Assembly (NCBI GenBank): GCA_022562795.1
Contig: JADFOP010000001.1
Coordinates: 1-64,000 of the forward strand
Source: Nitrospinota bacterium
GTDB lineage: Bacteria > JADFOP01
Reading direction: 5' to 3'
Length of the DNA stretch: 64,000 nucleotides
Below, in pieces: positions 2,755-61,508 of the stretch. The notes beneath the pieces were generated by a model. It was not told the DNA's origin. It saw nothing but the letters and a program-made list of their open reading frames with translations, and did not search any database. The position numbers were made by a program, and so were the translations under genes. Positions within the stretch are counted from its first letter, which is position 1. Each line of letters starts with the position of its first letter.

Positions 2755-4047
2755 TTACGGGCGGAATTTCCCGATGATGAGGGTGCAGTTGGAGCCGCCG
2801 AAGCCGAATGAGTTGGAAAGCGCCGTGGCGATGGGCTGGGGCCTGGCGACGTTGGGCACGTAGTCGAGGTCGCACTCCGGGTCGGGGGTCTCGTAGTTGA
2901 TGGTGGGCGGCGCTATCCCTTCCTCGATGGCCGAAAGGCACGCAAGCAGCTCCACAGCCCCTGCGGCGGAGATGAGGTGTCCGATCTGGCTCTTGGTCGA
3001 GGAGACGGGCAGGCGGTCGGCGTGCCCCCCGAAGACGGTCCTCAAGGCCCGGGTTTCGGAGGAGTCGTTCATCCGGGTCGAGGTGCCGTGGGCGTTTACG
3101 TAGTCCACAGCATGAGGGGGAATGCCGGCGTCCTCCAGGCTCAAGCGCATGGAGACGACCGCGCCTGAGCCGTCGGGAGGGATGTCGGTTATGCGGTAGG
3201 CGTTGGAAGAGGAGCCGTAGCCGAGGACTTCGGCGCGTATGGGCGCCCCTCGGGCCAGGGCGTGCTCCAATGCCTCGATGACCACGATGCCCGCCCCCTC
3301 GCCTAGGACGAATCCGTCTCGGTGGAGGTCGAAGGGCCTGCTCGCGCGGGTCGGCTCGTCGTTGCGGGTCGAGAGGGTCTGAAGGAGGCAGAAGCCGGTG
3401 AGGGAGACCTCGTCGATCATGGAGTCGACACCGCCGGAGATGGCCAGGTCGAGGTCGCCCCGGCGGATGATGTTGAAGGCGTCCCCAATGGCCTGGCTAG
3501 AGGCGCAGGCTGAATGGACGGTCAGGTTGAGGCCCAAGGCGTTGTATGCGATAGCCAACAGGCTGGCGGTCAGGTTGAGCTGGCTTTTGATAAGGTTGTT
3601 GGGGTTGGCCACCCGCCAGCCTTGGGCGCCGAGCGCCGCGTAGTCCACGCTGTGGGTCTGGCCGAAGAGCCGGACGAACTCAGCCAGTTCGGGCAGGTTG
3701 TACTTCTCCTGGCCGGCTCCCATGACGACCCCGAAGCGGGTCGGCTCTAGGGCGGCGGGGTTGAGCTTGGCGTCGTCGACGGCCTGGCGGGCCGCCGCCA
3801 AGCCGAAGGTGGTGAGGCGGTTGACGAACTTGGAGTATTTTTTGTGGGGCAGGTATGGCACGGGGTCGAAGTCTTTCACCTCGGCCGCAATGGACGCGGG
3901 GAAGGTGGAGGCGTCGAAGAGGGTGATGGGGCCGACCCCGCTGGCCCCGCTGACTATGCCTGACCAGGTGGTGGGCCAATCGTTGCCTAGGGGGGTGACC
4001 GCCCCGACCCCAGTGATGACCACCCGACGAGGGCGCCCTTCGCTCAC
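2755..4047 (-). CDS. fabF: beta-ketoacyl-ACP synthase II (KAS II)
   Basis: The product condenses malonyl-ACP with acyl-ACP in fatty acid or polyketide elongation in the cytoplasm. The 430-residue protein has the thiolase-fold catalytic set: Cys181 in HSACASSQ, His320 in NAHGTST, and Lys352 and His357 in STKSQIGH. The start is GTG at 4047, preceded by AGGAGCAGGAG. It lies downstream of an acyl carrier protein gene and fabG on the same strand. Around residues 110-150 it resembles the Cys-less ketosynthase at 56489-57796, so the two may be partners. Whether it serves bulk fatty acid synthesis or a special pathway cannot be decided from sequence. Confidence 0.93.
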   Translation of the reverse strand: MSEGRPRRVVITGVGAVTPLGNDWPTTWSGIVSGASGVGPITLFDASTFPASIAAEVKDFDPVPYLPHKKYSKFVNRLTTFGLAAARQAVDDAKLNPAALEPTRFGVVMGAGQEKYNLPELAEFVRLFGQTHSVDYAALGAQGWRVANPNNLIKSQLNLTASLLAIAYNALGLNLTVHSACASSQAIGDAFNIIRRGDLDLAISGGVDSMIDEVSLTGFCLLQTLSTRNDEPTRASRPFDLHRDGFVLGEGAGIVVIEALEHALARGAPIRAEVLGYGSSSNAYRITDIPPDGSGAVVSMRLSLEDAGIPPHAVDYVNAHGTSTRMNDSSETRALRTVFGGHADRLPVSSTKSQIGHLISAAGAVELLACLSAIEEGIAPPTINYETPDPECDLDYVPNVARPQPIATALSNSFGFGGSNCTLIIGKFRP

Positions 4048-4172
4048 GCTCCTGCTCCTTTGGGCCGCTTGGCGGCCCGGTTGCCCATCGGCCCCGGCCT
4101 GCCCGCCCCCGCCTGACCAACGTCTGAGAGGATATCAGGAGGACGGGTGGCGAGGAGTTTCACTGCGGCATG

Positions 4173-4574
4173 CTAGAGGCGTCCTCGCTCGTTTAGCTTC
4201 ACCAGGACAATGTTGTAGAAGGTCTCCACTGTGAAGAGCCTTGGGATGTCCTTGGCCGCCAGGCCGTCCTTGAAGTGGATGGGGTCGATTTCGGGCATGA
4301 CACCTCGGAGGGCCTCTAAGCCCTCGGATGTGATCATCCCGTCCTTCTCGAACTCCTCATCGGAGAGCCCCCCTCGGGCGTTCCGCTCGATTTCGCCCCG
4401 CGGAATCTTGATGCCGAAGGACCGCTCCATTCGAAAGACGATATCCAGAAAATCAAGGCTCTCGGCGTCCAGCTCTTCGATCAGCCGGGTCTTAAGCTCC
4501 ACCTCCTCTTCGTCCACCCCAAGGGCTTCTACGATAATCGCCCTCATCTCATCAAAGACCTGGTCTCTATCCAT
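4173..4574 (-). CDS. acpP: acyl carrier protein with extended C-terminus
   Basis: Residues 1-65 form an acyl carrier protein: an acidic helix (ALGVDEEEVELKTRLIEELD) followed by the phosphopantetheine site AESLDFLD, with Ser39 as the likely attachment residue. The protein has 133 residues, whereas ordinary ACP has about 75-80. The extra C-terminal 65 residues (after FGIKIPRGEIER) contain no motif I know. It sits between fabG and fabF and probably carries the acyl intermediates for them. Holo-ACP synthase is encoded at 54963-55349. The gene name is used loosely; this could be a dedicated ACP rather than the housekeeping one. Confidence 0.85.
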   Translation of the reverse strand: MDRDQVFDEMRAIIVEALGVDEEEVELKTRLIEELDAESLDFLDIVFRMERSFGIKIPRGEIERNARGGLSDEEFEKDGMITSEGLEALRGVMPEIDPIHFKDGLAAKDIPRLFTVETFYNIVLVKLNERGRL

Positions 4575-4683
4575 AGGTAAATGTCCCTCTCTTGCAGCAG
4601 TCCCCGCAGCGATCGATCAGATTCCCTGGTTGTGTGCTCCAGGAGCGCTCCAGCGATTGGTTTCCTTTCCCCTGCCGGGGGTT

Positions 4684-5430
4684 CTAGAGGCGCAGCCCTC
4701 CGTCGACGTGAATCACCTGGCCGGTGATGTAACTGGCCTCGTCTGAGGCGAGAAAGACGACCACACGGGCCACCTCCTCTGGCATTCCAAAGCGCCTAAG
4801 AGCAATGTCCTTGAGTATTTTGTCACCCCCGATGCTTCGAGCCTCACGGCTCATGTCGGTTTCGATCATGCCCGGCGCCACGGCGTTGACCGTGATGCCC
4901 TTGGGCGCAAGCTCTACTGCGCAGGCCCTGGTGAAAGCCTCGATGGCTCCCTTACTGGCTGCGTAATTCGTCTGACCCCGACCACCACGAGAGGCGGCGG
5001 CCGAGGAGAGGTTGATGATGCGACCGGCCTTCTGGAGGATCATGGGTTCAGCCACCACCTGGGTGAAGTTGTAGGCTCCTCCCAAGTTGGTGGACAGCAC
5101 GTCCTCCCAATCATCCGGCTCCATCGCCAACAAGAGCTGGTCTCGAATGATCCCAGCGTTGTTGACGAGGACGTCGATCCTATCGAAGGCCTCAATGGCC
5201 GCTTCTACGGCGGACTCGACCTGGGACCTGTCGGTGCCATCGGCCATAATGGCGAGGCACTCGGCCCCCGATGCCCGAACTGCCGCGACGGTCGCCTCAG
5301 CAGCAATTGTGTCGGCCCGGTAGGTAAAGGCCACCCGGGCCCCCTCGACGGCAGCCAACTCTACGCAGGACCGGCCAATGCCTCTGGAGCCGCCGGTGAC
5401 TAGAACCGCCCGCCCCGCCAGTCGTCCCAT
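4684..5430 (-). CDS. fabG: 3-oxoacyl-ACP reductase (SDR family)
   Basis: This is a classical short-chain dehydrogenase/reductase of 248 residues that reduces 3-oxoacyl-ACP with NADPH. The nucleotide-binding loop GGSRGIG is at residues 13-19, NNAG at about 90-93, and the catalytic Ser142/143, Tyr156 and Lys160 are in LSSAAA and YAASK. The start ATG at 5430 follows GGAAGGG. It is the first gene of the operon fabG-acp-fabF-DUF4149. The 215-base divergent space to ddl is AT-rich near 5460-5500 and probably holds the promoters for both directions. Confidence 0.93.
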   Translation of the reverse strand: MGRLAGRAVLVTGGSRGIGRSCVELAAVEGARVAFTYRADTIAAEATVAAVRASGAECLAIMADGTDRSQVESAVEAAIEAFDRIDVLVNNAGIIRDQLLLAMEPDDWEDVLSTNLGGAYNFTQVVAEPMILQKAGRIINLSSAAASRGGRGQTNYAASKGAIEAFTRACAVELAPKGITVNAVAPGMIETDMSREARSIGGDKILKDIALRRFGMPEEVARVVVFLASDEASYITGQVIHVDGGLRL

Positions 5431-41784: not shown

Positions 41785-41859
41785 CTACACGGGCACAAAA
41801 CCATGTAGTCAAGGGGCGGCTTGAGAGGCCGGATGGGACGACGGGCAGGATGCGGCGGC

Positions 41860-45656: not shown

Positions 45657-46061
45657 CGAATCGATCCTCTCGGATTCCAGTCTCCGGATGCCGGCGCCAA
45701 GCGAGGTCGCACTCCCGTCTCGACGGCGCTCCACAATGCACTAATAAGATAGACCATCCGCCGGAAAATGCAAACTCCTCAAGGCGGGATTTTTCCCTGT
45801 CCGGAAGACGTTTTCTCCGTTGTCTGGTCCCCTAAGTTTTCAAGGAAATCGATGGCGCTATTGTCATGCGCCACCCAGACGCATATCCTGTGGGCGCTCT
45901 GCATCGGACGCGGTCAGTATCTTAGGGGCCTAGAGTCGGATCTGTCAAGTTGATTTGGAGGAATAAGGGGTGAACTTCCTTAAGGGGGCTTGCGGGTCGG
46001 GGTGATGCTCCTTGCCTTTCTCTCCGGACGTACGTAGAATTCAGGCTTTGGAGCCCTGGCT
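45657..46061. other. 405-base region without a gene
   Basis: The region between the divergent FNR and methyltransferase genes holds no convincing frame. It contains the 78-base stretch that could extend FNR if a more distal start is used (up to 45734), and a GGAGG followed by an 11-codon frame near 45955. I see no repeat or RNA structure. Confidence 0.5.
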
Positions 46062-46733: not shown

Positions 46734-46836
46734 GTCCCAAAGAAGGCAGTAACTCCAATGAACTCCAATGGTTTGACACCACCGAATGGCTGTGGTATCG
46801 TGAGTTCGCCGTGTCGGTTCTGGGCCCTCTACCCAG

Positions 46837-47829: not shown

Positions 47830-49523
47830 GCCGAATCGTCACCCGACTCGCTGCGAGGCGGGCCCGGCGGCTGAAAGAGTCCTTCGTCGCCGCCACGAAG
47901 GATCCGTGGGCCAGCCAGCAGCGGCTCCTCTCAGAACTCTTGAGCCGCAACAGGAACACCCTATACGGTCGCCGATACGCCTTCTCTACCATCGATGGGC
48001 CGGAGGCCTTCCGGCGAGATGTCCCTCTAGTGGTCTTCGAAGACCTGGAGGCGGATGTGAGCCGTATGGCCGCCGGTGAGCAAGATGTCTTGGTTAGCCG
48101 GCGCGACCCGCTTTTGAGTTTTTGCATTACGAGTGGCACGACCGGTCGGCCCAAAACGATTCCGGTGACCGCGAGCTTCCTCCGGGCTTACAAGCAAGGC
48201 TGGTCGACATGGGCCTGGGCGGCCATTGAGGACTTCCCGATCTTGGTGGAAGAGCTTGCCACCCACAAGCTGCTGGCCCTGGTCTCACCCTCTGTGAGCG
48301 GAAAAACCACCGGAGGTTACCCGATAGGCGCGATCACGGGGCTGACCACAAGCACTCAGGCTCGCTCCCTGTCCCGCGCACTGGCCGCACCGCAGGCCTG
48401 CGCCTCCGTCGAAGATTTTGCTCAAAGAACCTACGCCCTCGTGCGCTTCTCCCTCGAGGAAGAGGTGGGACACATCTCGACCCCCAACCCTTCGACCCTT
48501 CTGCGTGTGGCCGACCTCATGGAGGAGCGCACCGAGGAGCTGCTTCGGGATGTGCGGGACGGCACGTGTTGGGGCATCGAGGAGATCCCGGAGCAAACGG
48601 CTTCGGCCCTCCGTGGGCGTCTGGCTCCCCGGCCCGAGCGGGCCCGGGTGCTTGAAAAGCGTGCGGCCTCTATTGGCAAGCTCAGGCCCCGGGAGGTTTG
48701 GCCCACCCTTACCTTGCTTTCGTGCTGGACCGGCGGGACCATGCGCCTCTACCTGGAGCGCCTTGAAGAGCCCTACGGACCTGTTGCCTTGCGCGACCTC
48801 GGGCTCATTGCCTCCGAGGGGCGGATGAGTCTGCCGCTTGCCGACGGTGGGGCCGGCGTCCTCGATCTCAGGAGCAACTTCTACGAATTCATCCCAGAGG
48901 CCGAAGCCGACGGGTCTCGGCCCCAAACCCTCTGGGCGCACGAGGTGGAGGTGGGCGAGCGGTACTTCCTCGTCCTGACCAACCGTGCGGGACTCTACCG
49001 GTATCAGATCCAGGACTGCGTGGAGGTGGTAGGCCACTACGGCTCCACCCCTCTCATCGTTTTCCTTCACAAGGGCCGCTCTATCTCCTCTCTGGCCGGC
49101 GAGAAATTGACCGAACATCAGGTCTTGAGCGCCGCCGAGGCGGTATTCGCGCCCCCCAACCCAAGAGTGGTCCGTTTCATAGCATGTCCCGCCTGGGCCG
49201 ATCCTCCGCACTACGTCCTCTGCCTGGAAGAGGGCGATGGCGGCGGGGACGATGAGGCCTGGCGCAAGCGTGTGGCCGACTTCGACCGAACCCTCGAGAG
49301 GCTTAACGTGGAATATGCCTCCAAGCGCTCATCGGGCCGCCTTGGGCCCCTGGAGCTGCGATGGCTCTCCCCGGGAAGCTTTGCGAAGCTCGAGGCCGAG
49401 CGGATTGCCGCATCGGGTGGCCTGGCCGAGCAAGTCAAGCACCCTTACCTCGTAGCCGACCTCGAGTTCCTCGCCCGGCTCGGACCCCCGTTGGGGGTTG
49501 CAAAGGGCTCTGGCGCTGATTAA
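47823..49523 (+). CDS. GH3-family acyl-adenylating enzyme
   Basis: The 566-residue protein starts at GTG 47823 after GAGGAGG. It resembles the GH3 family, known in plants for joining hormones to amino acids through acyl adenylates: the ATP-binding motif TSGTTGRPKTIPVT is present, followed by YPIGAITGL and later YRYQIQDCVEVVGHY. Bacterial GH3 proteins have uncertain roles, and the acid substrate is unknown. Context with a methyltransferase and hydrolase suggests a small modification pathway. Confidence 0.87.
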   Translation: MLGRIVTRLAARRARRLKESFVAATKDPWASQQRLLSELLSRNRNTLYGRRYAFSTIDGPEAFRRDVPLVVFEDLEADVSRMAAGEQDVLVSRRDPLLSFCITSGTTGRPKTIPVTASFLRAYKQGWSTWAWAAIEDFPILVEELATHKLLALVSPSVSGKTTGGYPIGAITGLTTSTQARSLSRALAAPQACASVEDFAQRTYALVRFSLEEEVGHISTPNPSTLLRVADLMEERTEELLRDVRDGTCWGIEEIPEQTASALRGRLAPRPERARVLEKRAASIGKLRPREVWPTLTLLSCWTGGTMRLYLERLEEPYGPVALRDLGLIASEGRMSLPLADGGAGVLDLRSNFYEFIPEAEADGSRPQTLWAHEVEVGERYFLVLTNRAGLYRYQIQDCVEVVGHYGSTPLIVFLHKGRSISSLAGEKLTEHQVLSAAEAVFAPPNPRVVRFIACPAWADPPHYVLCLEEGDGGGDDEAWRKRVADFDRTLERLNVEYASKRSSGRLGPLELRWLSPGSFAKLEAERIAASGGLAEQVKHPYLVADLEFLARLGPPLGVAKGSGAD

Positions 49524-49642
49524 TAATACACCTTCAATACAGGGGTCTGCGCCCCCATCCTGAGGCTGGTCTGGTCAAAAGAGATCCCCGGTCGGGTCGA
49601 GGGAGGGCGTGTGGTCCGTTTAGCCGGCGAGAGGGTCGCCGT

Positions 49643-50455
49643 ATGTCCTACAAAACGTCTGGCCGGTGGCGCCGCCAAAGCCTCGTCGCCTGCATAGCCG
49701 CAATTTGTTTATCAATCTCCCTCGGGCTTTCTGAAGAGACCCGCGCTGGTGAGACCCCCGATCCACACCAGCTCATCCTCTCGGTGCAGGACAGCTACGC
49801 CTCCGTTAGCGGCTACACGGCGACCTTCATCAAGCAGGAGCGAATAAACGGCACCCTGAAACCCCGCGAGACCATCCAGATGAAGTTTCAAAAGCCCTTC
49901 AAGGTGTATATGAAGTGGGTTGAGGGGGCCAAGGAGGGCCAAGAGATCATCTACGTGAAAGGCAAGAACAACGGCAAGGCTCTGGCCCACCTTGGGTTCG
50001 GTGGCTTCATCGGGGGGATGCTCAACCTAATACTGCCCACATTCGCTATCACCCCCGACGGGCCGACGGCTATGAATGGTAATCGCCGCCCTATTACCGA
50101 CGCGGGCATCGGGATGATGATAGAGAAGATCATCCATTACAACTCTGCGGCTAAGGCCAATGGTGACCTCAAGCTCTCCTTCAAAGGCGAGGCGGAGGTG
50201 GATGGCCGTCCTGCCTTGGTGGTGGAGCGCATCTTGCCCCATAAGGAGGGCTACCCGGCCCATCGCACCACGTACTACATCGACAAGGGGTACAACCTTC
50301 CCGTCATAGTCGTCCTCTACGATTGGGAGGACCAGATGACGGCCTACTACGAGTACTCGAGCCTCGTGCTCAACCCAGGCCTCAAACCCATCGACTTCGA
50401 GACCCGCAACAAGGAGTATCGCTTCGGCCTGGTACCCCCGATCATCAAGGATTGA
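49643..50455 (+). CDS. DUF1571 family exported protein
   Basis: The 270-residue protein has a signal peptide (LVACIAAICLSISLGL) and matches DUF1571: VQDSYASVSGYTATFIKQERINGTL, KPFKVYMKWVEG and TTYYIDKGYNLPV. The fold resembles lipoprotein-sorting LolA-like half-barrels, so lipid binding in the periplasm is possible but not shown. The ATG follows GAGAGGG. It is followed 12 bases later by the enolase-superfamily gene. Confidence 0.82.
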   Translation: MSYKTSGRWRRQSLVACIAAICLSISLGLSEETRAGETPDPHQLILSVQDSYASVSGYTATFIKQERINGTLKPRETIQMKFQKPFKVYMKWVEGAKEGQEIIYVKGKNNGKALAHLGFGGFIGGMLNLILPTFAITPDGPTAMNGNRRPITDAGIGMMIEKIIHYNSAAKANGDLKLSFKGEAEVDGRPALVVERILPHKEGYPAHRTTYYIDKGYNLPVIVVLYDWEDQMTAYYEYSSLVLNPGLKPIDFETRNKEYRFGLVPPIIKD

Positions 50456-50467
50456 CCCCCACGGCCC

Positions 50468-51634
50468 ATGGCCATCGCACGCATCGAAGTCTTCCACGTC
50501 CGCCTTCCTTTGCGGTGGTCCGTCGGTCACGCCGCCGCCAGGCGCCAGGTCAGCGAGAACCTCTTCGCCGTTGTAGAGCTGGCCGATGGTACGACGGGGT
50601 TAGGAGAGGGTTTGCCCCGGCCCTACGTCACCGGGGAGACCATGGCCGGGTGCTGGCGGAGCCTGGAGAGGTTTGACCTTGAGGCCCTTGTTGCCGCCTG
50701 GCCGTCTCTTGGCGAGATCGATCGGTTGCTTGATGTCCTGGTGGCGGGCGAGAAGGCGGCGCCCTCAGCTCGGGCCGCCTTGGAGCTTGCCATGCTCGAC
50801 GCTCTGGGCAGGACGACCGGCGTCTCGGCCGCCGCCCTGGTCGCTGATCTCCTGGACATGGATGCTCCGGGCGGTCGAGAGATATCCTACAGCGCTGTGT
50901 TGCCCTTCGCCCGCCCCGCCATTCTTCGGCTGTTATGCTGGGGGGCGCGGGCCTATGGCTTCACCTCGGCCAAACTCAAGGTCGGCGGCCCGAACGTTGA
51001 GGAGGACTGTAGGCTGCTCGAGGAGGTCAGGGGCTGGCTGGGCCCTGATGTGGAGCTTAGGGCCGACGCCAACGGCGCCTGGTCGCCTGGGGATGCCCTC
51101 ACCTTTATGGAGGTCTGCCCTCGGGTCCGTCTCGCCAGCCTCGAGCAGCCCGTCGCCCCGACTGCGTGGGGCGGGTTGGCCGAGAGGCTCGCCGACCCTC
51201 CGCCCGTCTCTCTCATGGCCGACGAGGGCGTCTGCACGATGGAGGACCTCGCTCGTCTGACGGCCTCGAAGTCGATCCAGGGCCTAAACTGCCGCATCGC
51301 CAAGATGGGGGGTCTTCTTCCGGCGGCTCGAATCGGACGGGCGGCGGCGGGGCTCGACCTCCTCGTGGGGTGTCACGTGGGCGAATCGACGGTGCTCTCT
51401 GCGGCGGGCCGCCATCTGGCGGCGTTACTGCCCGAAGCCCGCTGGTTCGAAGGCTCCTACGACCGGTGGCTCCTCTCCGCCTCCATAGCTCGGAAGCCCC
51501 TGGGCTTCGGCAGAGGGGGTCGGGCTTCCGTGGAGCTTTCCCCCGGCCTTGGGACCGAGCTCCGGCGAGACGTACTAGAACGGCTTACCCTGAGGCGTAT
51601 GGTTCTCTGGCCGCCGAGAGGAGGTGGGGGATGA
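50468..51634 (+). CDS. enolase-superfamily enzyme (muconate cycloisomerase/epimerase-like)
   Basis: The 388-residue protein has the capping domain and TIM barrel of the enolase superfamily. The KLKVG motif is present, as are the metal ligands in RADANG, LEQPV and ADEG. At the other catalytic Lys, 24 residues after the third metal ligand, the sequence reads NCRIAKMGG, so Arg replaces the usual Lys of NIKL. The substrate class is therefore uncertain: dipeptide epimerase, cycloisomerase or dehydratase. Its stop overlaps the next start as ATGA. Confidence 0.82.
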   Translation: MAIARIEVFHVRLPLRWSVGHAAARRQVSENLFAVVELADGTTGLGEGLPRPYVTGETMAGCWRSLERFDLEALVAAWPSLGEIDRLLDVLVAGEKAAPSARAALELAMLDALGRTTGVSAAALVADLLDMDAPGGREISYSAVLPFARPAILRLLCWGARAYGFTSAKLKVGGPNVEEDCRLLEEVRGWLGPDVELRADANGAWSPGDALTFMEVCPRVRLASLEQPVAPTAWGGLAERLADPPPVSLMADEGVCTMEDLARLTASKSIQGLNCRIAKMGGLLPAARIGRAAAGLDLLVGCHVGESTVLSAAGRHLAALLPEARWFEGSYDRWLLSASIARKPLGFGRGGRASVELSPGLGTELRRDVLERLTLRRMVLWPPRGGGG

Positions 51635-52485
51635 AGGCCACGGGTCAGCGGCATAGCCTCGCGGCGGCCGACGGCGTTGACTTGGCCCTCTACGCTTACG
51701 GGCCCGAGACGGCGGAGCGGGCGGCCATCGTCCTGCACGGCATCCAAAGCCACGCGGGTTGGTTCACGGCGAGCTGCGAGGCCCTCGCGAACGCAGGCCT
51801 CCGGGTCATCTGCCCCGACCGGCGAGGCTCCGGCGCGAGCGGCGGAAAGCGGGGCCACACCGCATCGCCGGATGTGCTCCTGGACGACCTCGGGCGGATC
51901 GTCTCATGGGTTCGGGCAGAGCGGCCCGGCCGCCCCCTTCAGGCGGTCGCGCACTCCTGGGGGGCCGTCTACGCCCTGGCCTACCAGGGGCGTGAGCCTT
52001 CGGCCTTCGAGCGCTTAAGCCTCGTGAGCCCGGGCCTCTTGCCCCGGGTCGACCTGAGCCCCACTCAGAAGGCTGCCGTCGCTCTCGGCTCCCTCATCTC
52101 ACCCGAGCGCGTCTTGCCAATCCCAATAAGTGGCCCGGAGGCCTTCACGGCCAACCAGGCCAAGCGGGACGCCATCGGAGCCGATGAGGCCCGCCTCAAG
52201 TACGCCACGCTCCGCTTCTTTTCCTCTGCCTGGCGGCTTCGCCGTCGGGCCTCAGCCGCCGCACGCCGCACCGAGGCCCCCATGACCGTCTTTTTGGCAG
52301 GCACCGATACCATCATCGACACCGAGGCGACCCGGAGGTTTTTCTACGGGTGCGGCGAGGGAGTCCGGGTGGAAACCTTCGATACGGCCCACCATACCCT
52401 GGAGTTCGAGGACGACCCGGTCGCCTTTCTCGACTCCCTGGTTCTGTGGTGCCTGGCCCCGCCGGGCCGAGAGGTGTCCCTGTGA
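51631..52485 (+). CDS. alpha/beta hydrolase (monoacylglycerol lipase-like)
   Basis: The 284-residue protein matches the serine aminopeptidase/monoglyceride lipase-like hydrolases: HGIQSHAGWF, the nucleophile elbow HSWGAVYA, Asp in GTDTIID and the late His in FDTAHHTLEF. The ATG at 51631 follows GAGGTGGGGG and overlaps the previous stop. It lies between the enolase-superfamily gene and an SDR protein in one run of overlapping genes. Confidence 0.83.
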   Translation: MKATGQRHSLAAADGVDLALYAYGPETAERAAIVLHGIQSHAGWFTASCEALANAGLRVICPDRRGSGASGGKRGHTASPDVLLDDLGRIVSWVRAERPGRPLQAVAHSWGAVYALAYQGREPSAFERLSLVSPGLLPRVDLSPTQKAAVALGSLISPERVLPIPISGPEAFTANQAKRDAIGADEARLKYATLRFFSSAWRLRRRASAAARRTEAPMTVFLAGTDTIIDTEATRRFFYGCGEGVRVETFDTAHHTLEFEDDPVAFLDSLVLWCLAPPGREVSL

Positions 52486-53411
52486 TCTGCATCACCGGTG
52501 CGGCGGGCTACATTGGCAGCCACGCCGCTTTGGTCCTTGCCGATCGCGGCGCGGCTCTGCGTGCCTTCGTTAGACCCACGGCGGCGGCCGGGGAGAGAGC
52601 CTTTCTTCAATCGCACGGCGCCGAGATTGTCCTGGGGGAGGCGGCCGACCCCCAGGCCATGGAGCGGGCGTGCGCGGGATGCCGGGCAGTCCTCCACTGT
52701 GTGGGGGGCATGCATCCGCCCAGAGACGGCGGCTTCCGCTCCCTCCACGAGGGGCCCGCCGAGGCCCTGGCGGAGGCCGCACAACGGACAGGCGTAGAGA
52801 GCATCGTCTTGGTCTCGGTCGTCGGCACCGCGTTAGAGGCCGACACCGCCTACCACCGGACCAAGGCTCGCGCCGAGGAGATCCTTCGCTCCGGTGCTTG
52901 GGAGACAACCGTAGTGCGGCCATCCCTCGTCTACGGCCGGGGCGGAGGGCTTAGGGATAGCAGGTTCATGGTGCGCTTGGCTGCCCACCTGCATAGCGGT
53001 CGTCCCTTTCCGCTGCCGGGCGGCGGCCAGAGCCTCATCCAGCCCATCTTTATGGATGACTTGAGCCGGGCTTTGGCCCTAAGCGCCGCCGAGGGTGTGG
53101 GGGCGGGTCGCACCGTCGAATTGGGTGGACCCGAGCGGATGACCCTTAGGGCTTGGGTGGAGCGGCTGGCGGCGGTCCTCGGCGTTCGTCCCAGGCTGCT
53201 TCCTCTGCCCCAGGCTATTGGGTTGGCCCTTGCCGCCTGCGCGGAACGCCTATTCTCCACTCCACCCATTACGGTTGACCAGGTTCGTCTCATGGGCCAC
53301 AATTTCATAGCACCTCTCGACGGCATCGAGGCGACCTACGGATTCGCCCCAACGAAGCCTGCCGAGGGGCTGGAGAAATCCTACAGGGCGATTGCCGACG
53401 AGGACTCATAG
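52482..53411 (+). CDS. NAD(P)-binding SDR protein (extended epimerase-like)
   Basis: The 309-residue protein starts at GTG 52482, overlapping the previous stop (GTGA). The Rossmann loop TGAAGYIGSH opens it, and YHRTK near residue 120 is the YxxxK catalytic pair of extended SDRs. The sequence resembles NmrA-like/NDUFA9-like reductases more than sugar epimerases. It is coupled to the alpha/beta hydrolase upstream. Substrate unknown. Confidence 0.83.
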   Translation: MICITGAAGYIGSHAALVLADRGAALRAFVRPTAAAGERAFLQSHGAEIVLGEAADPQAMERACAGCRAVLHCVGGMHPPRDGGFRSLHEGPAEALAEAAQRTGVESIVLVSVVGTALEADTAYHRTKARAEEILRSGAWETTVVRPSLVYGRGGGLRDSRFMVRLAAHLHSGRPFPLPGGGQSLIQPIFMDDLSRALALSAAEGVGAGRTVELGGPERMTLRAWVERLAAVLGVRPRLLPLPQAIGLALAACAERLFSTPPITVDQVRLMGHNFIAPLDGIEATYGFAPTKPAEGLEKSYRAIADEDS

Positions 53412-53422
53412 AGGGAGACGCC

Positions 53423-54616
53423 GTGCGACGGCCCAGTACGCTTCCACCGTTGTCCCCATGGACCCTCCTGCTCTGTGGGCTCACCCTACTTATGGGTGGC
53501 TGCCAGGGAATCCCCAGCTATCTGTCGCCCACGGGGCGTTTCTCCAAGCCTCCGCGCATCATCGAGGCCCACTCAACGGAGACCGATGACGGCTGGACCC
53601 TGGCGCTCAAGCGGTACCGGCGGGCGGGAAACACTGGGCTCCTCGGGCCCGTGGTGCTATGCCACGGCTTCTCCACGAACGGGTTCTTTTGGGACCTCGA
53701 CGAGGCCCATAGCCTTGCCCGCTACCTGGCCGACCGCGACTTCGACGTATGGGTAGTGTCCCTCCGGGGAGCGGGCGCCAGCACGAAGCCTGGGTTCAGC
53801 GCCATCAAAGGCATAATCACCACGCGTCTGGCCGATCTGCCGGCCACCATCTCGCGGTCCACCCTCGACCCCAAAAAGTTCAACTGGACGGTGGACGACT
53901 ATATCGACCACGATGTGCCCGCCATCATCTCCTACGTGACCGGGGCCACAGGCCGGCCGAAGCTATGGTGGGTCGGCCACTCGATGGGGGGGATGATCCT
54001 CTTCGCCCACCTTGAGCGGGTGGACGAGGCCCGTGTGGCGGGCTTCGTGGCTGTGGCCAGCCCTATGGCCATACCCCAGCCGCCCAACGACATCCTTCAG
54101 GGCATCCTCAAGCAGTCCTGGTTGCTGAAGCTCTCGGCCTTGGCTGTTAATGCAACGCTCCCCGCGAAGCTCGCCTCGCCCCTGGGCGGAGCGGTGCAGA
54201 CGCCCCTTGACGCCCTCTTCTACAACCGCGACAACATGGATCGGGCCACCATCACCAGGCAATTCTTTATCGGGGTGGAAGATATCTCGACGGCCGTCCT
54301 CGACCAGTTCAACCAAATGATTCGAACGGGCGAGTTCAAGCGGGCCGACGGCTCCTACAACTACACGAGGAACCTCGGCAAGGTCACGGTTCCGGTGCTG
54401 CTGGTGTCGGGCCAGGTGGACAACCTCGCTCCGCCCGAGGTCGTCCGCTTCGCTTACGATCAGGTGTCGAGCACGGATAAGACCTACCGAATGTTCGGCC
54501 GCATCAACGGCTACCGGGCCAACTACGGCCACAACGACCTCGTGCTCGGCATACGCGCCCGAGACGAGGTCTTCCCCCTCATCGCCGACTGGCTCACCGA
54601 GAGGGCCGGCCCCTAG
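53423..54616 (+). CDS. lipoprotein alpha/beta hydrolase
   Basis: The 397-residue protein has a signal sequence with lipobox LMGGC (Cys27), so it is probably lipid-anchored. The hydrolase part has LCHGFSTNGF, the elbow GHSMGGM, Asp in SGQVDNLAP and a late His in NYGHNDL. The start is GTG 53423 after GGGAG. It resembles PHB-depolymerase/lipase-like hydrolases. It closes the plus-strand run that begins with the DUF1571 gene. Confidence 0.83.
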   Translation: MRRPSTLPPLSPWTLLLCGLTLLMGGCQGIPSYLSPTGRFSKPPRIIEAHSTETDDGWTLALKRYRRAGNTGLLGPVVLCHGFSTNGFFWDLDEAHSLARYLADRDFDVWVVSLRGAGASTKPGFSAIKGIITTRLADLPATISRSTLDPKKFNWTVDDYIDHDVPAIISYVTGATGRPKLWWVGHSMGGMILFAHLERVDEARVAGFVAVASPMAIPQPPNDILQGILKQSWLLKLSALAVNATLPAKLASPLGGAVQTPLDALFYNRDNMDRATITRQFFIGVEDISTAVLDQFNQMIRTGEFKRADGSYNYTRNLGKVTVPVLLVSGQVDNLAPPEVVRFAYDQVSSTDKTYRMFGRINGYRANYGHNDLVLGIRARDEVFPLIADWLTERAGP

Positions 54617-54717: not shown

Positions 54718-54894
54718 ATGGCGTTGGTAGTCAATTGCAGGGACGTTGGGGCGGATTGTGATTTTGAGGCCCGCGCGGATACTGAAGAAGAGCTTTTTAA
54801 AATTCTCACTGAACACGCCAAAAGTGGCCATGGGATGGAGGACATTCCGCCGGAGCTCGTCGAAAGAGTACGGGCTGTCATCCGCGTGGAATAG
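54718..54894 (+). CDS. DUF1059 family small protein
   Basis: A 58-residue protein with GGAGG eight bases before the ATG at 54718. The sequence NCRDVGADCDFEARADTEEEL and HAKSGHGMEDIP matches DUF1059, a small family of unknown function widespread in archaea and bacteria. Two Cys and two His in conserved positions suggest metal binding. Confidence 0.85.
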   Translation: MALVVNCRDVGADCDFEARADTEEELFKILTEHAKSGHGMEDIPPELVERVRAVIRVE

Positions 54895-54962: not shown

Positions 54963-55349
54963 TCATCCAACCGCTACGGCCTGGGCCACTGCCATGTCGC
55001 CCTCGTGGGCCAATGAGACCAGGACGGTTTGGCCGCCGAGGCCCTCGAGATGGGCCTGGGCGGCGCCCCTAAGCGTGCAGACCGGTCGTCCGTAGTCGTC
55101 GGCGGTGACTTCGACGTCGCGCCAGCCGACCCCCCGGGCCCACCCGGTCCCGAGAGCCTTGAAGACCGCTTCCTTCGCGGCGAAGCGGGCCGCGAGGTGC
55201 CGGGCAGGGTCGGCCCGCCCGGAGCACTCGTTCCTCTCACGGTGGGTGAATACACGCTTTAAGAAGCGCTCGCCGTGGCGGTCTATAGCCCTTCGGAATC
55301 GCTCGATCCCCACCATATCGATCCCGGTGCCCACCACGGCTCCTCGCAT
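54963..55349 (-). CDS. acpS: holo-ACP synthase
   Basis: AcpS transfers phosphopantetheine from CoA to the Ser of acyl carrier proteins. The 128-residue protein has the two motifs GIDMVGIERF (Asp11, Glu16) and FAAKEAVFKALG (56-67). The ATG at 55349 shares its A with the stop of the glycosyltransferase gene (TGATG). It ends a five-gene operon with lipid or polyketide-type enzymes and probably also activates the ACP at 4173-4574. Confidence 0.92.
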   Translation of the reverse strand: MRGAVVGTGIDMVGIERFRRAIDRHGERFLKRVFTHRERNECSGRADPARHLAARFAAKEAVFKALGTGWARGVGWRDVEVTADDYGRPVCTLRGAAQAHLEGLGGQTVLVSLAHEGDMAVAQAVAVG

Positions 55350-56488
55350 CAGCCCGCCTCCGGCCGGTAGAGGCGGCCACGCCATACTACCGCCCCACCC
55401 ATGGCGCAAACCCAGGCCACGTTGGCCATCAGGCCAACCAACACTAGGCTCGCCAGTGGGCTTGCCAGTGAGGCGTAGGGACTCATCCCCTGAAGCCGGT
55501 AGCTTCGCCAAAGGGTGGCCGAAAGAAGCCCGCAGGTGGTGGCGGCGACGACCCACGTGAGGCCACCTCCCGCCACGAGCCAGACGAAGGGCCACAAGCC
55601 CCCGAAGAAAGCCTGAAGTAAGCCGCTGATAGCCGGTTGCGCCCTGCGCTCGAAGAGGTGTACGAAGATGCGGAGCCAGCCGGCCCAGAGATCGCCAAGG
55701 GAGGTGTACATGCGCGTTGTCACCATGGCCGTGCCATAACCTAGGAAGAACCGCCGCTGGCTCTTCTTCAATGCTCTGGCCATGGCGATGTCCTCCAGGA
55801 GGGCTCCGCGGCACTCGTTGTGGCCCCCGATAGCTAAATAGGCCTCACGCCGGACGAGGAAATACTGGCCGCTGGCGAAGACGGTCGGGTCGGAGGGGTC
55901 GTTGACTCGGAGGGCCGGGTACCAGAGCACGCAGACCCCGCCCAGCATGGGCTGCACCACCTGCTCCCAGAAGGAGCGGGCTTCGAGCCTGGGTAGGAGG
56001 CTCAAGGCGTCGAGCTTGTGCTCCTCGGCGAAGGCCAGCGCTGAGGCGAGGCTTCCGGGGGCGTGGGTGGAGTCGGCGTCGGTGAAGAGCAGCCAGGGTT
56101 GGGTTGACGCCTCGTAGCCCACGCGGCAGGCGTTGTTCTTGCCCGTCCAGCCCTCCGGGAGCCCTTCTGTGGCTAGGAGCCGCAAGCGGGGTTCTTCTGA
56201 GGCCAGGGCTCTCACCACCCTGGCGGTCCCGTCGGTCGAGCGGTCGTCCACGACAAGAATCTCCGCCGGGGGGGCGGATTGAGCGAGCAGGGAGGTGAGG
56301 CAGTGAGCGATGTTGGCCTCCTCGTCTCTCGCCGGGACAATGACGCTTACGGGCAGTTCGCCCTCAGAATCCGGGTCGGGGGTGAGGAACGGGTCGCGGC
56401 GAGGGGCGACGAAAGTCTCTCGAAGCCTGCTCATCCAGACGAGCCCGACAAAGGCGAGAGAGAGAAAGACGAAGAGAGCCCAGAGCAC
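55349..56488 (-). CDS. family 2 glycosyltransferase, membrane-bound
   Basis: The 379-residue protein has an N-terminal hydrophobic helix, a GT2 core (VSVIVPARDEEANI, DDRSTDGT, FTDADSTH) and three further C-terminal membrane helices. This layout resembles HpnB-type and CrtQ-type transferases that attach sugars to lipid acceptors such as hopanoid or carotenoid products. Its place between a ketosynthase-like gene and acpS suggests it glycosylates the acyl product of the operon. GTG start at 56488. Confidence 0.83.
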   Translation of the reverse strand: MLWALFVFLSLAFVGLVWMSRLRETFVAPRRDPFLTPDPDSEGELPVSVIVPARDEEANIAHCLTSLLAQSAPPAEILVVDDRSTDGTARVVRALASEEPRLRLLATEGLPEGWTGKNNACRVGYEASTQPWLLFTDADSTHAPGSLASALAFAEEHKLDALSLLPRLEARSFWEQVVQPMLGGVCVLWYPALRVNDPSDPTVFASGQYFLVRREAYLAIGGHNECRGALLEDIAMARALKKSQRRFFLGYGTAMVTTRMYTSLGDLWAGWLRIFVHLFERRAQPAISGLLQAFFGGLWPFVWLVAGGGLTWVVAATTCGLLSATLWRSYRLQGMSPYASLASPLASLVLVGLMANVAWVCAMGGAVVWRGRLYRPEAG

Positions 56489-57796
56489 CTAGGAGTCCTC
56501 GGCGGCCGCCAGGGCCAAAACAACGCAGTGGCCTCCAAGGCCCCGGGAGATGGACAGGGCGAGGTCGAAGGGGTGGGGCCGGGCGGCGCCTGCCACCACA
56601 TCGAGGTCGCAGGCCGGATCGGACTCGGTGTAGTTGATGGTGGGCGGGACGGTCTGGTCGCTCAGTGCCGCGAGGGAGATGACCGCCTCGATTGTGCCGC
56701 TGGCGGCCATTGTGTGACCCATCATGCTCTTGGTAGAGCTGACCGGCACCCGGCCGACGCATGCCCCGAGAGCCAGCGTGATGCCTGCCGCTTCGGTGGC
56801 GTCGCTGGCGACGGTTGCGTTGCCGTGGGCGTTAATGTAGCCGACCTCCTCGGGCTGGCGGCCTGCATCGGCGAGGGCCTGACCGATGGCCCGTGCTACC
56901 TCGGCTCCGTCTGCTCCGAGCTCGATGAGCCCCGTATCGGCGGTGGCACATCCGTAGCCCACCACTTCGCCGTAGATGCGCGCCCGGCGGGCGCGGGCGT
57001 GCTCCCATTCTTCGAGGACGAGGGCGCCCGCCCCCTCGGCTGCAACCGTTCCTCGGCGGCGGGCGTCGAAAGGCCGGCAAACGGTCTCCGGAGGCTCGTC
57101 ATTGCTCGGGGCAAGCAGCCCCAGCCGCCAGTAGTCGAGCATCTCCTTGCCGTGGATGAGGGAATCGTAGGCCCCGGCAACTGCCACGATACACCGGCCG
57201 GTCTCAATAGCCTTGGCCGCCTCGCCGACGCTTTGAGCGCCTGAGACCCCGGCGTTGACGATGTTCATGTTCGGCCCCTGAGCGTTGACTGCGATGGAAG
57301 TGAACGACAGCGCGTTGTTGGGCAGCACCGTAAGAAGCCACAGCGGGTTTATTTTCTCCAGCACCTTATCCCCGAAGGCCTTGATGTCCACCTCTCCTTC
57401 GGGCCCCAGGGTATCGGACACGGCGGGGAAGAAGTCCTCGGTGTCGGTCATCTTCCCCCCGCCGGCGCCGATGTATACCCCGGTCCGAACCGGGTCGACC
57501 TCACCAACATCAAGGCCGCTGTCGGCCCAGGCCAAGGATGTGGAGGCGACGCCTAACTGGACTGAACGGCGCATCAGCTTAAGCGCCTTGCGGTCGATGT
57601 GCTGCCGGGGGTTGAAGTCCTTGACCTCCGCTCCTATGCGCACCGGGAAGGTCGAGGCGTCGTAGCTAGAGACCTCGGCGACACCCGAGACGCCCTCGCA
57701 GCAGGCGGACCAGACGGCGTCGAGGCCAGTGCCTATGGGGGTGATGAGCCCCACGCCGGTTACGGCCACCCGTCGAGCGCTTCGGCCCCTAGCCAC
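56489..57796 (-). CDS. ketosynthase-like protein lacking the catalytic Cys (chain-length-factor-like)
   Basis: The 435-residue protein has the full ketosynthase fold, and His324 (NAHGN), Lys356 and His361 (STKSMMGH) are kept. At the catalytic position the sequence reads NAGVSGAQ: Gly183 sits where FabF has Cys (Cys181 of the 2755-4047 protein). Type II polyketide systems use Cys-less ketosynthase partners (KS-beta or chain length factor) with an active KS-alpha. The GTG start follows GGAGG. It is tightly packed with dehydratase-like genes, a glycosyltransferase and acpS. Confidence 0.88.
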   Translation of the reverse strand: MARGRSARRVAVTGVGLITPIGTGLDAVWSACCEGVSGVAEVSSYDASTFPVRIGAEVKDFNPRQHIDRKALKLMRRSVQLGVASTSLAWADSGLDVGEVDPVRTGVYIGAGGGKMTDTEDFFPAVSDTLGPEGEVDIKAFGDKVLEKINPLWLLTVLPNNALSFTSIAVNAQGPNMNIVNAGVSGAQSVGEAAKAIETGRCIVAVAGAYDSLIHGKEMLDYWRLGLLAPSNDEPPETVCRPFDARRRGTVAAEGAGALVLEEWEHARARRARIYGEVVGYGCATADTGLIELGADGAEVARAIGQALADAGRQPEEVGYINAHGNATVASDATEAAGITLALGACVGRVPVSSTKSMMGHTMAASGTIEAVISLAALSDQTVPPTINYTESDPACDLDVVAGAARPHPFDLALSISRGLGGHCVVLALAAAEDS

Positions 57797-58778
57797 TTGC
57801 TGTTACCTCCTCGGCTTCGAAGCGGGCCCGCCAGAGGGCCTCCCGCGCCTCGGCAAGGACAGGGGGGACTGTGGCCGGCTCGAGCCTGTATAGCGCCAGG
57901 CAGCTAACAGCCTTCTCGCCTTCTACGGTTCCTGCGAGGGCGAGTTCCGCCTCCTCCTCGTCCCAGCGGCGGACCTTCGCTTCCATTCGAAGGAGGTCGC
58001 CCGGCTGGAGGAAACGGCGAAATTGGATGCTTCTGACCTCCCGTAGTGTCGCTCGCCGGGGCGGATCGGGCGATTCCGACCGACCCCGCTCAAGCAGGCA
58101 TAGTCCCACTTGGCTCAGGGCTTCAGCCATGATGGTTCCCGGCATCACCGGTCGCTTGGGGAAGTGGTCGTCCAGGATCGACTCTATACGCGTTACGGCC
58201 TTGACGGCCACAAGCCGCGTCCCCGGCTCCCAGGCCACGACCCGGTCCACCAGGGGGTAAGGCCAAAGCTGCCCCGCCAGGAAGGGCCAGCGCTCCTCCA
58301 ACCCATCGGCGCTCCAGACGGCGTCGGCATCAGGTTCCTCGCCGCAAAGGAACCGGTATCGGGCTCTGACGAGGGCCTCGTCCTCCAGCGCCTCGATGGG
58401 GACGTAGGCGCAGGTGCCGTTCTCGAGGGTGGCGATGACTCGGCCGTCTACGAGGGCCCGGCCGCTACAGAGAGCGCCTTCCTCGTTCATGGAGTGGATG
58501 TCGGCCTCGATCCGAAGCTGGTCGCCCGGGCGGGCCCAGCCGTCGAAGGACATCTTGCCGGTTGTGACGGCGATTGGCTTGACCCGAAACTCCATAGAGA
58601 CGATGACGAGCCAGGAGATGCAGTGGGCGATGGACTCGGCAGCATGGGCCAGGGGCAGGAGTGGACAGCCCGGGGTTAGCTCGACTAAACCCGGCTCGCT
58701 CATCGCGACGTTCTTCACCCCAACGGCCCGTTTGCCCGGGACCACCTCGAGAAGGCGATCGACGAAGAGAAAGGGCAT
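57789..58778 (-). CDS. double hotdog dehydratase-like protein
   Basis: The 329-residue protein contains two hotdog domains in tandem. The second (from about residue 175) has the FabZ-type active site: His205 in DDHFPKRP and Glu219 in MAEALSQ, 14 residues apart as in FabZ. The first (residues 1-130) has a matching overall pattern but no catalytic His in the same place (LTPGCPLLPLAHAAES). It may be structural or bind substrate. It overlaps the ketosynthase gene by eight bases. Likely dehydrates 3-hydroxyacyl-ACP. Confidence 0.85.
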   Translation of the reverse strand: MPFLFVDRLLEVVPGKRAVGVKNVAMSEPGLVELTPGCPLLPLAHAAESIAHCISWLVIVSMEFRVKPIAVTTGKMSFDGWARPGDQLRIEADIHSMNEEGALCSGRALVDGRVIATLENGTCAYVPIEALEDEALVRARYRFLCGEEPDADAVWSADGLEERWPFLAGQLWPYPLVDRVVAWEPGTRLVAVKAVTRIESILDDHFPKRPVMPGTIMAEALSQVGLCLLERGRSESPDPPRRATLREVRSIQFRRFLQPGDLLRMEAKVRRWDEEEAELALAGTVEGEKAVSCLALYRLEPATVPPVLAEAREALWRARFEAEEVTASG

Positions 58779-58783
58779 GGTCC

Positions 58784-59227
58784 TTAGCGGAGAATGGTGG
58801 GTGGCTCGCCTGAGAGCACCCCTCTGAGAAGCCCGCGCCAGCCAGAGGCGAGCGGATCGTCAACCACCCCGTCAAAGCGGTACTTAAGGCGCGCCCGGAC
58901 GGCCGTCTCCCCCTGGAGAGTCGCTTCGGCCTCGATGACGGCGGCGTCCCGACTGGCTTCCACGACGACGACCGAGTAGTTCAGCACTTGGCCGGGGCGT
59001 GCTGTCTTTAAGAAGGTCGCCTCCCCCACCGCCTCGAGGATCGGGTGGCGTGCTCCCGCCTCCGCCAGCACCATCTCGGCCAAGGTGCATAGTCCGTGGA
59101 GGGCGATGGGGCCCGGCAGGGCCGGATCGGTGGGCGAGCCCTCCGGCACCGGGCAGTCTGCGGCGCTCACCGCCTTGAGGCCCGTTCCTCCACGACCCGG
59201 CTCTATGCTTATCACGCGATCGAGCAC
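58784..59227 (-). CDS. single hotdog domain protein
   Basis: A roughly 147-residue hotdog protein resembling FabZ-like or thioesterase-like domains (LDRVISIEPG at the start, then PGPIALHGLCTLAEMVLAEAGARHP). I place the start at GTG 59227, nine bases after GGAGGAGGG; GTG 59248 is possible but lacks a ribosome site. The usual FabZ His/Glu pair is not evident. It is the first gene of the minus-strand operon running to acpS. Confidence 0.75.
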   Translation of the reverse strand: MLDRVISIEPGRGGTGLKAVSAADCPVPEGSPTDPALPGPIALHGLCTLAEMVLAEAGARHPILEAVGEATFLKTARPGQVLNYSVVVVEASRDAAVIEAEATLQGETAVRARLKYRFDGVVDDPLASGWRGLLRGVLSGEPPTILR

Positions 59228-59386: not shown

Positions 59387-59938
59387 TCATTGAGGCTTTT
59401 CGGCCTTACCTCCCCGTTCCATCTCATCCAGGATCTCTTCGATCCTGGCCTGCAGCGCCTCAGCCTCCACCTGAATTTCAGGGCCGGCCTGCGCCCTAAG
59501 AGCCCCCAGCGTTATGTACGTGAGTCTGAGGCTACGGGACAATTCGTTTTGGCGGGCGTCCTCAGCCCGGCGATTCAAAGACCCCATCTGGCCCGAGAGC
59601 TGCTCGAGCGTCGCCCGGGTCTGCGTCTGCCCCTCATTCAGAGCTCGCAGCTCGGCCTCGGGCTTCGGCGGGCGAAAAAATAAGAAGGCAAAGGCCAGCA
59701 GCGCTATGAGGGATAATCCGATCGATAAATAGCCAAGGGTGTTGAATTCGAGACGAAGGGCGGGGCTGACATCTTCCAGGCTCGGGACCCGAGGCTTCGT
59801 GGCCGCGGGGTTTTCAGCGGGAGGGGCCTGGCGGGCCCTTTGGTAGAAAGCCCCCAGGCGCTCGGCCCGACGCTCTCGTTCCTCGGCGCTTTCCTCATCG
59901 GACTCATCACCAGGCAGATGTTTGAGCGCTTTGGCCAT
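59387..59938 (-). CDS. membrane-anchored coiled-coil protein
   Basis: The start at ATG 59938 follows GAGAGGG. The 183-residue protein has a charged N-terminal cytoplasmic part, one membrane helix (LSIGLSLIALLAFAFLFF, about residues 73-90) and a long C-terminal coiled-coil stretch (LRALNEGQTQTRATLEQLSGQ). No family is recognised. A role in envelope organisation is possible from this shape only. Confidence 0.72.
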   Translation of the reverse strand: MAKALKHLPGDESDEESAEERERRAERLGAFYQRARQAPPAENPAATKPRVPSLEDVSPALRLEFNTLGYLSIGLSLIALLAFAFLFFRPPKPEAELRALNEGQTQTRATLEQLSGQMGSLNRRAEDARQNELSRSLRLTYITLGALRAQAGPEIQVEAEALQARIEEILDEMERGGKAEKPQ

Positions 59939-60048
59939 CGCTGCTACCCTCTCAGGCCCTGCCCGCAAGTCTATCATGCCACCGGGCCATGTGGAAGCTG
60001 CTTCCGAGCACCGCTTGACAGAGCCGAAGGGCCGCGATACCGTACGCG

Positions 60049-60699
60049 ATGATGACGCCCAAGGACGAGCCCCCAATGGCATACCATCCATTTGAACAAC
60101 CAGGTCGGCCCATTACGCTGGGCGCACATCTGGAGAGCGCGCCTCACCTGGCCGAGGGTCCTCCTGCCTGCCCCCTTTGTAGGACGGTCATTGACCTTGA
60201 GGCGCTCGAGCACTCCGTAAAGGCCAGGCGTAGTCGAGCCTCTCCCGATGAACCGATCACCTACCACCTCTCTTGCTCAATGCCCTGCTTCAACGAGGGC
60301 TGCCCGGTCTACGTTACGCTGGAGGTCACCCTCTCCGATGAGGAATACGACGCCTGGGGCCAGCTGCAAAACAAGCGGCTAGACTACACTCTCTTTCGCG
60401 ACGGCCGCCCCATTACCATCGAAGCCGAAGCCGACGCATCGACAACGGCTCCGCCTCCCTGCCGCTGCCCGGCCTGTAAGTGCGAGCTCGATCTTGCGAG
60501 CCTCATCCCGCAGTCGGAGATCCTCATCTCAGGCGCCCCCATACCGCAATCGGAAGGGCCCCCTCAAAACCGGGTGACAGCCTACACGCGCTGCCCCCAG
60601 TGTGGCATAAACTTGACGTGCGCCTGCTTCGTCCCTAACGAGGAGCTCGGCGACCTGCGGCCCCCCGGCTCACCCGGTCCGGGAGATCACTCTCAGTAG
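60049..60699 (+). CDS. hypothetical protein with two Cys-rich zinc ribbons
   Basis: The 216-residue protein contains two similar zinc-ribbon pairs: CPLC with CSMPC and CFNEGC in the first half, then CRCPACKC with CPQCGINLTC in the second. It thus looks like an internal duplication of a metal-binding module. There is no DNA-binding helix that I can identify. ATG 60049 or 60076 could start it; neither has a strong ribosome site. It overlaps the radical SAM gene tail to tail by seven bases. Confidence 0.72.
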   Translation: MMTPKDEPPMAYHPFEQPGRPITLGAHLESAPHLAEGPPACPLCRTVIDLEALEHSVKARRSRASPDEPITYHLSCSMPCFNEGCPVYVTLEVTLSDEEYDAWGQLQNKRLDYTLFRDGRPITIEAEADASTTAPPPCRCPACKCELDLASLIPQSEILISGAPIPQSEGPPQNRVTAYTRCPQCGINLTCACFVPNEELGDLRPPGSPGPGDHSQ

Positions 60700-61508
60700 A
60701 CCTCGCAGGCCACCCCTGTGCTCTCTTGACACCAACCGGCTATGGCGTCGAGACGGTCCCTAGGGACTATCTTTAGTTGAGTGTCGGCGGGAATACGGTC
60801 CAGCGTGTAAAGCTGGACGGCGAGGGGACGAATCTGCTCCACCTTATCAATCCAGGCGGCAACAATATCGTCGGTGGTGTTGTCGACCCGCCCCTGGACG
60901 AACATGCTCTGCACTATGCAGTCGGTCAGGCCGGAAATGTGGGCGATCATCCGTTGGAGGTCGAAGGGACGGTGGGGTAGATTGACAGCTTGGATGGTCT
61001 CCGGGTCGCCGGCGTCAAGCTTCACCTGCCTTTCATCCAGGCGATTGAGCGCCTCGAGGACTTCGGGGCGATGGATGGTCGAGGCACTGGTGAGTATCGA
61101 GAGCTTTACCTCCGGCGCCAGGCGGTCTCGGACGGCGGCCACAACGTCAACGAGCTCGGAGAACTCGGGGTGGAGGGTCGGCTCGCCGTTGCCCGCAAAG
61201 GTGAGGCTGTCGATGCGCGTTCCGTCGGCCGCCAGCCCCTCGAGGGCGTCTTCCAGGGCCGCACCGACCGCCTCGACGGTCGGGAAGAGCTCGGCCGGAG
61301 CCTCACCGACATCGCCCACGTAGAATCCTGTCCAGCCAAACTGGCAGTAGGGACAATTAAAGGAGCATAGTTTGACGTCGAGCGGCAGGGGGTTAATGCC
61401 CAGCGAGGCCCCCAAGCGCCGGGAACGCACGGGCCCGTAGATCAAGGTGGGAAAGAGGTTCCTCTGAATTAGAGAGGAGCCCTGTTGGGCCGGAAACCTT
61501 GGGTCCAT
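60693..61508 (-). CDS. radical SAM protein
   Basis: The 271-residue protein has the [4Fe-4S] motif C48-x3-C52-x2-C55 (CSFNCPYC), followed by FAGNGEPTLHP, a GE-type SAM-binding segment. The opening GPVRSRRLGASLGINPLP is found in the COG0731-type group, which includes wybutosine-like and uncharacterised enzymes. The ATG follows GGGAG. The substrate is unknown. Confidence 0.85.
   Translation of the reverse strand: MDPRFPAQQGSSLIQRNLFPTLIYGPVRSRRLGASLGINPLPLDVKLCSFNCPYCQFGWTGFYVGDVGEAPAELFPTVEAVGAALEDALEGLAADGTRIDSLTFAGNGEPTLHPEFSELVDVVAAVRDRLAPEVKLSILTSASTIHRPEVLEALNRLDERQVKLDAGDPETIQAVNLPHRPFDLQRMIAHISGLTDCIVQSMFVQGRVDNTTDDIVAAWIDKVEQIRPLAVQLYTLDRIPADTQLKIVPRDRLDAIAGWCQESTGVACEVY

Follow-up and report, generated by a model that had tools for sequence, protein, structure and literature searches.

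A minus-strand operon with a cysteine-less ketosynthase in a Nitrospinota bacterium as a probable half of an accessory type II fatty-acid or polyketide synthase divided between two operons

Rhizobial AcpXL loci for very-long-chain acids combine a dedicated acyl carrier protein (ACP) with two FabF-like proteins and a FabZ. In aryl polyene systems, the chain-length factor (CLF) ApeC is of half size (PMC8358021). A survey of type II polyketide synthase clusters lists planctomycetes among the phyla with pairs of ketosynthase (KS) and CLF (PMC10132072), so the broad class is already known. Additionally, FabF paralogues without the active-site Cys were noted in 2009 in Rhodopirellula baltica (RB3714, with Asp, and RB4527, with Glu) and in Kuenenia (Rattray 2009, PMC2649909). 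Here, we describe a five-gene operon on the minus strand, spanning 59227-54963 of a 64,000-nucleotide stretch of DNA (the window) from a Nitrospinota bacterium (assembly GCA_022562795.1, contig JADFOP010000001.1, positions 1 to 64,000). The operon encodes, in this order, a single hotdog protein (HD1), a double hotdog protein (HD2), a Cys-less KS homologue (referred to as CLF), a membrane glycosyltransferase (GT) and a holo-ACP synthase (AcpS). We consider it reasonably probable that these genes are one half of an accessory type II fatty-acid or polyketide synthase split over two operons of the window, the other half being a ketoacyl reductase (KR)-ACP-KS operon at 2755-5430.

The main evidence that the two operons belong together, which is one of homology and co-clustering, comes from planctomycetes. 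A scan with the CLF, in which each species was represented by a single genome, recovered planctomycete loci, including a FabZ-KR-ACP-FabZ-KS cluster present in many Pirellulales-type planctomycetes, e.g., Rhodopirellula, Stieleria and Thermogutta (loci L009-L027). Homologues of the window KR, ACP and KS (48-58%, 34-46% and 48-53% identity, respectively) co-cluster there with two hotdog proteins, which supports the link between the two operons proposed in the first-pass annotation of this DNA. The active KS, ACP and reductase that it had placed at 2755-5430 were all confirmed by family matches. The KR (4684..5430, minus strand) is a FabG-like ketoacyl reductase (TIGR01830, 277 bits, cut-off 298), and the ACP (4173..4574, minus strand; PF00550, 32 bits) carries an insert of ~50 residues before the last helix, common to the planctomycete cluster ACPs and missing from housekeeping ACPs. 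The KS (2755..4047, minus strand) has the residues of an active ketosynthase (Cys181, His320, Lys352 and His357) and grouped with the planctomycete cluster KS with a support of 91/87 in the wider KS tree described below.

Coordinates, junctions and curated family matches of the five-gene operon all agreed with the layout and spacings reported previously. The stop of HD1 (58784..59227) at 58784 is followed, after a gap of 5, by the start of HD2 (57789..58778) at 58778; HD2 and CLF (56489..57796) overlap by 8 bases (57796-57789), CLF and GT (55349..56488) are separated by a gap of 0, and GT and AcpS (54963..55349) share 1 base in the TGATG at 55349. The frame of HD1 stays open up to 59248, and its start is most likely GTG 59227, in agreement with the earlier coordinates; this start is sound because a GGAGGAGG site (Shine-Dalgarno) is located ~10 bases 5' of it. 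Family matches of the operon genes were far beyond chance level. The G+C content at third codon positions of the five genes (0.78-0.81) was inside the range of the neighboring genes, and thus there was no compositional sign of a foreign origin.

Family-based searches, used for a genome-wide gene inventory, identified three ketosynthases (a housekeeping FabF on contig C13, the KS at 2755 and the CLF) and two ACPs. Contig C13 carries a complete housekeeping cluster, plsX-fabH-fabD-fabG-acpP-fabF, and a separate FabZ is encoded on contig C51 after a gene resembling lpxD by eye. The possibility that the five-gene operon is itself a housekeeping fatty acid cluster, which the first-pass annotation had named as contrary to its proposal, was rejected, as the operon shares no gene with the C13 set.

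The CLF is 435 amino acids in length and matched both the N-terminal and the C-terminal KS domains (117 and 94 bits). In the alignment, the active-site Cys is replaced by Gly, with NAGVSGAQ read where the active KS has SACASSQ, whereas the two His residues and the Lys have been retained. In a first tree, the window KS, the CLF and the planctomycete cluster KS formed one clade (99), separate from housekeeping FabF. A wider tree, to which ketosynthases from ten planctomycete genomes searched whole were added, again placed these proteins, together with Cys-less planctomycete paralogues, in one clade (100/100) apart from housekeeping FabF, and the CLF branched with the Cys-less FabF paralogues with a support of 100/99. 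The earlier descriptions of this protein as lacking the active-site Cys and as chain-length-factor-like were both upheld; it is a full-length FabF relative. In the ten planctomycete genomes, the paralogues have Asp or Glu in place of the Cys and vary at the His and Lys positions, and the same genomes hold both a cluster KS and Cys-less paralogues. Three other placements were rejected by the approximately unbiased (AU) test: a recent origin of the CLF by duplication of the window KS (p=0.0013), a group of the CLF with the window KS and the planctomycete cluster KS that leaves out all other Cys-less proteins (p=0.0022), and kinship of the CLF with housekeeping FabF (p about 1e-46). At one planctomycete locus (L154 9254-12728), a Cys-less (Asp) FabF paralogue adjoins the gene of a large protein that, by eye, resembles a terpene-cyclase-type repeat protein.

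Both hotdog proteins are FabZ-like, and the description of the pair as a dehydratase set was correct as to the type of fold and overstated as to catalysis, since the catalytic His is absent from HD1 and from the N-terminal half of HD2, leaving only one plausible dehydratase site. HD1 matched the FabA-like family PF07977 with 24.2 bits, just above the cut-off of 23, and has S in place of the catalytic His and H in place of the catalytic Glu. Its structure model was a confident hotdog, with a predicted local distance difference test (pLDDT) score of 82.9 and a FabZ match at Z 18.2 and a root-mean-square deviation (rmsd) of 1.8 over 122 aligned residues. HD1 would be a non-catalytic hotdog of FabZ-like fold, possibly serving as a partner or acyl-binding subunit. 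HD2 matched the FabA-like family over two stretches (75.6 bits); its N-terminal half has Glu48, with Leu34 where the His is expected, and its C-terminal half has both His205 and Glu219. The active site of FabZ and FabA combines a His from one subunit with an acid from the other, so HD2 could hold a complete site and, by its sequence, appears to contain one composite site of His205 and Glu48. The HD2 structure model was moderate and showed two hotdog modules (pLDDT 65, low near the active site), which made the His205-Glu48 distance not measurable; its rmsd to double-hotdog matches in the PDB was near 19, so the domain arrangement in the model is unreliable. In the hotdog tree, a housekeeping FabZ clade (97/99) left out all three window hotdog domains. 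The C-terminal half of HD2 was nearest to planctomycete hotdog A and the N-terminal half to hotdog B, in a placement that lacks resolution; by sequence matching, hotdog A fitted the C-terminal half best and hotdog B fitted both halves about equally.

AcpS matched the ACPS family PF01648 with 73 bits and passed TIGR00516 (91.2 bits, cut-off 59.8), which confirmed that the operon contains a phosphopantetheinyl transferase. As the sole PF01648 match in this 97%-complete assembly, it is probably a general 4'-phosphopantetheinyl transferase serving every ACP; it gives little information about a dedicated pathway and is not evidence of an enzyme dedicated to the operon. The GT matched PF00535 (GT2) with 88 bits and resembled HpnB (182 bits, cut-off 379) and CruG (159 bits, cut-off 600), in both cases below the cut-off; given these resemblances, it may well use an acceptor other than the acyl product. 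HpnC/HpnD/HpnE-like squalene genes were observed in the same genome on a contig of 3.9 kb (C77; L122 401-3505). A squalene-hopene cyclase had no match in the genome and may lie in a gap, as the contig with the HpnCDE genes is this short.

The genes present, their homologies and lineage and the state of their catalytic residues, described above, are observations; from these we infer the following pairing, activities and product. The active KS would pair with the Cys-less CLF, and the heterodimer would set chain length. Once activated by AcpS, the ACP with the insert would carry the growing chain, on which the KR would reduce the keto group and HD2 would carry out the dehydration through its single composite site, His205 of the C-terminal and Glu48 of the N-terminal half, with HD1 as a putative non-catalytic partner in a structural or acyl-binding role. 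Neither operon contains an enoyl reductase, so the chain may stay unsaturated; alternatively, a housekeeping enoyl reductase may complete it, giving a long acid that is saturated or hydroxylated. Either this product or another lipid may be glycosylated by the GT. The probable product is an unusual acyl chain, long or unsaturated, with an unsaturated chain, a very-long-chain acid and a polyene as candidates. A stronger version, in which the locus is a new split KS-CLF synthase of a poorly sampled lineage with a reversed composite HD2 site, a dead third hotdog and an undescribed glycosylated acyl lipid as product, seems unlikely to us. In type I dehydratases, the His and Glu halves are arranged opposite to those of the proposed HD2 site.

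Several observations weigh against a single synthase split over two operons. The operons stand 51 kb apart, no close CLF orthologue was found in the genome scans (best identity 43%), and hotdogs, GT and AcpS were not found beside the planctomycete Cys-less paralogue genes. The CLF branch is long, like the other Cys-less rows of the tree, so some residual attraction among Cys-less sequences is possible, and the hotdog tree also has long branches and cannot place the window hotdog domains. In addition, two genomes were used for comparison, one congener (G001, 85% complete) and one of the same class (G002); the genome search put the lineage close to no well-sampled group. In the congener, the KR-ACP-KS operon is retained at 84% identity, which is also the value for the KS, and the five-gene operon is missing from its site. 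Both flanks are present: contig C388 covers one as far as the gene that ends at 54616, and contig C77 covers the other from 59412. They continue into other genes, cytochrome P460-like and sigma factor genes in one case and an RsbW/STAS/Mla set in the other. These two contigs do not join, and the congener assembly yielded no AcpS match and no FabZ match; since no AcpS was found in an assembly of this completeness with unjoined contigs, the operon may be elsewhere or in a gap, and its absence holds for this site only. In the same-class genome, a single KS and a single AcpS were found, each on a contig of its own.

Among the other explanations, the one we take most seriously, although we judge it somewhat less than even, is a mixed operon in which only HD1, HD2 and CLF are a functional unit, AcpS is a housekeeping enzyme and GT acts on a hopanoid or other lipid. 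That AcpS is the sole PF01648 match, that GT resembles HpnB and CruG, and that HpnC/D/E-like squalene genes are on another contig would all fit this arrangement. However, the gap of 0 between CLF and GT and the overlap of 1 between GT and AcpS suggest that both are co-translated with the rest, and a squalene-hopene cyclase was not found in the genome, though it is possibly in a gap. A different question is the function of the CLF, which might be a malonyl-ACP decarboxylase giving an acetyl starter, like KSQ domains, instead of a chain-length subunit. The retention of both His and the Lys with loss of the Cys is a pattern that favors decarboxylation in Cys-replaced ketosynthases. We nevertheless regard this function as improbable, as the replacement is Gly and not Gln, the His and Lys vary among the planctomycete relatives, contrary to what a conserved decarboxylase suggests, and FabH is present in the genome for priming.

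The two remaining alternatives concern the product. In the first, which is the split synthase with its product named, a very-long-chain (hydroxy) acid would be made in an AcpXL-like manner and go into lipid A or a similar lipid; we treat it as a less likely possibility. The dedicated ACP has some similarity to the AcpXL-like model NF005079 and, as in AcpXL loci, there are two KS-type proteins and FabZ-type proteins; the ACP score of 45.9 bits is, however, below the cut-off of 83 and no better than with ordinary ACP models, and an LpxXL-type acyltransferase is in neither operon. An aryl polyene-type pathway, for which KS and CLF, KR, hotdogs and the lack of an enoyl reductase in either operon would speak, is very improbable, as the window CLF is of full length.

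The surroundings of the operon were also inspected. Upstream and in the same direction, 59387-60091 (minus strand) encodes a 234-amino-acid protein with no Pfam match, whose congener copy precedes the RsbW/STAS/Mla set. Between AcpS and the hydrolase gene ending at 54616 lies a small open reading frame of 58 amino acids (54718-54894, plus strand) with a good ribosome-binding site (AGGAGG). The run at 46038-54616 (plus strand) comprises methyltransferase, hydrolase, GH3-type ligase, DUF1571, enolase-superfamily, hydrolase, epimerase and hydrolase genes; it is mostly conserved in the congener (~72-78% nucleotide identity) and is possibly lipid-related, with the GH3-type ligase being OlsH-like at 102 bits (cut-off 620). 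The region 41835-42622 gave several overlapping alignments to one congener stretch and is hence repeat-rich.

Comparison of gene sets with aryl polyene and ladderane clusters showed that the operon fits neither; the first-pass annotation had recognized no described cluster with this gene set. Aryl polyene systems (ApeO-ApeC, ApeQ and dehydratases) also have KS and CLF, a KR and dehydratase hotdogs, and differ in ApeC, which is of half size, whereas both KS domains were matched in the 435 residues of the window CLF; an aryl polyene cluster was rejected on this point. A ladderane-type cluster (Rattray 2009) was rejected as well, as radical SAM and phytoene-desaturase-like oxidoreductase genes are in neither operon, the nearest radical SAM gene (60693-61508) being outside the five-gene operon. 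The likeness to the rhizobial AcpXL loci lies in the dedicated ACP, a pair of FabF-like proteins and FabZ, and the difference in the acyltransferase and the ACP score given above. In KS-CLF type II polyketide synthases, the CLF is beside its active KS, whereas here they are 51 kb apart. The R. baltica and Kuenenia proteins, which are outside our trees, have likewise lost the active-site Cys of a FabF-like protein, but the window CLF has Gly with His/Lys/His kept and shares an operon with hotdogs. The closest likeness is to the planctomycete accessory cluster, with its homologous KR, insert-bearing ACP and KS and its two FabZ-type hotdogs. A literature search for a planctomycete long-chain acid locus returned nothing usable. 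The accessory cluster is compact, whereas the window genes are split across 2755-5430 and 54963-59227; its hotdogs are separate, and the aligned copies have retained both catalytic residues, His and Glu, whereas those of the window are a fused double hotdog and a dead extra one; and CLF, GT and AcpS are additions of the window operon. FabF paralogues lacking the Cys have been on record in planctomycetes since 2009, with no product assigned to them. Here, a paralogue of this type shares its operon with hotdogs matching the planctomycete accessory cluster, which ties the Cys-less proteins to defined partners and makes KS-CLF pairing directly testable by co-expression.
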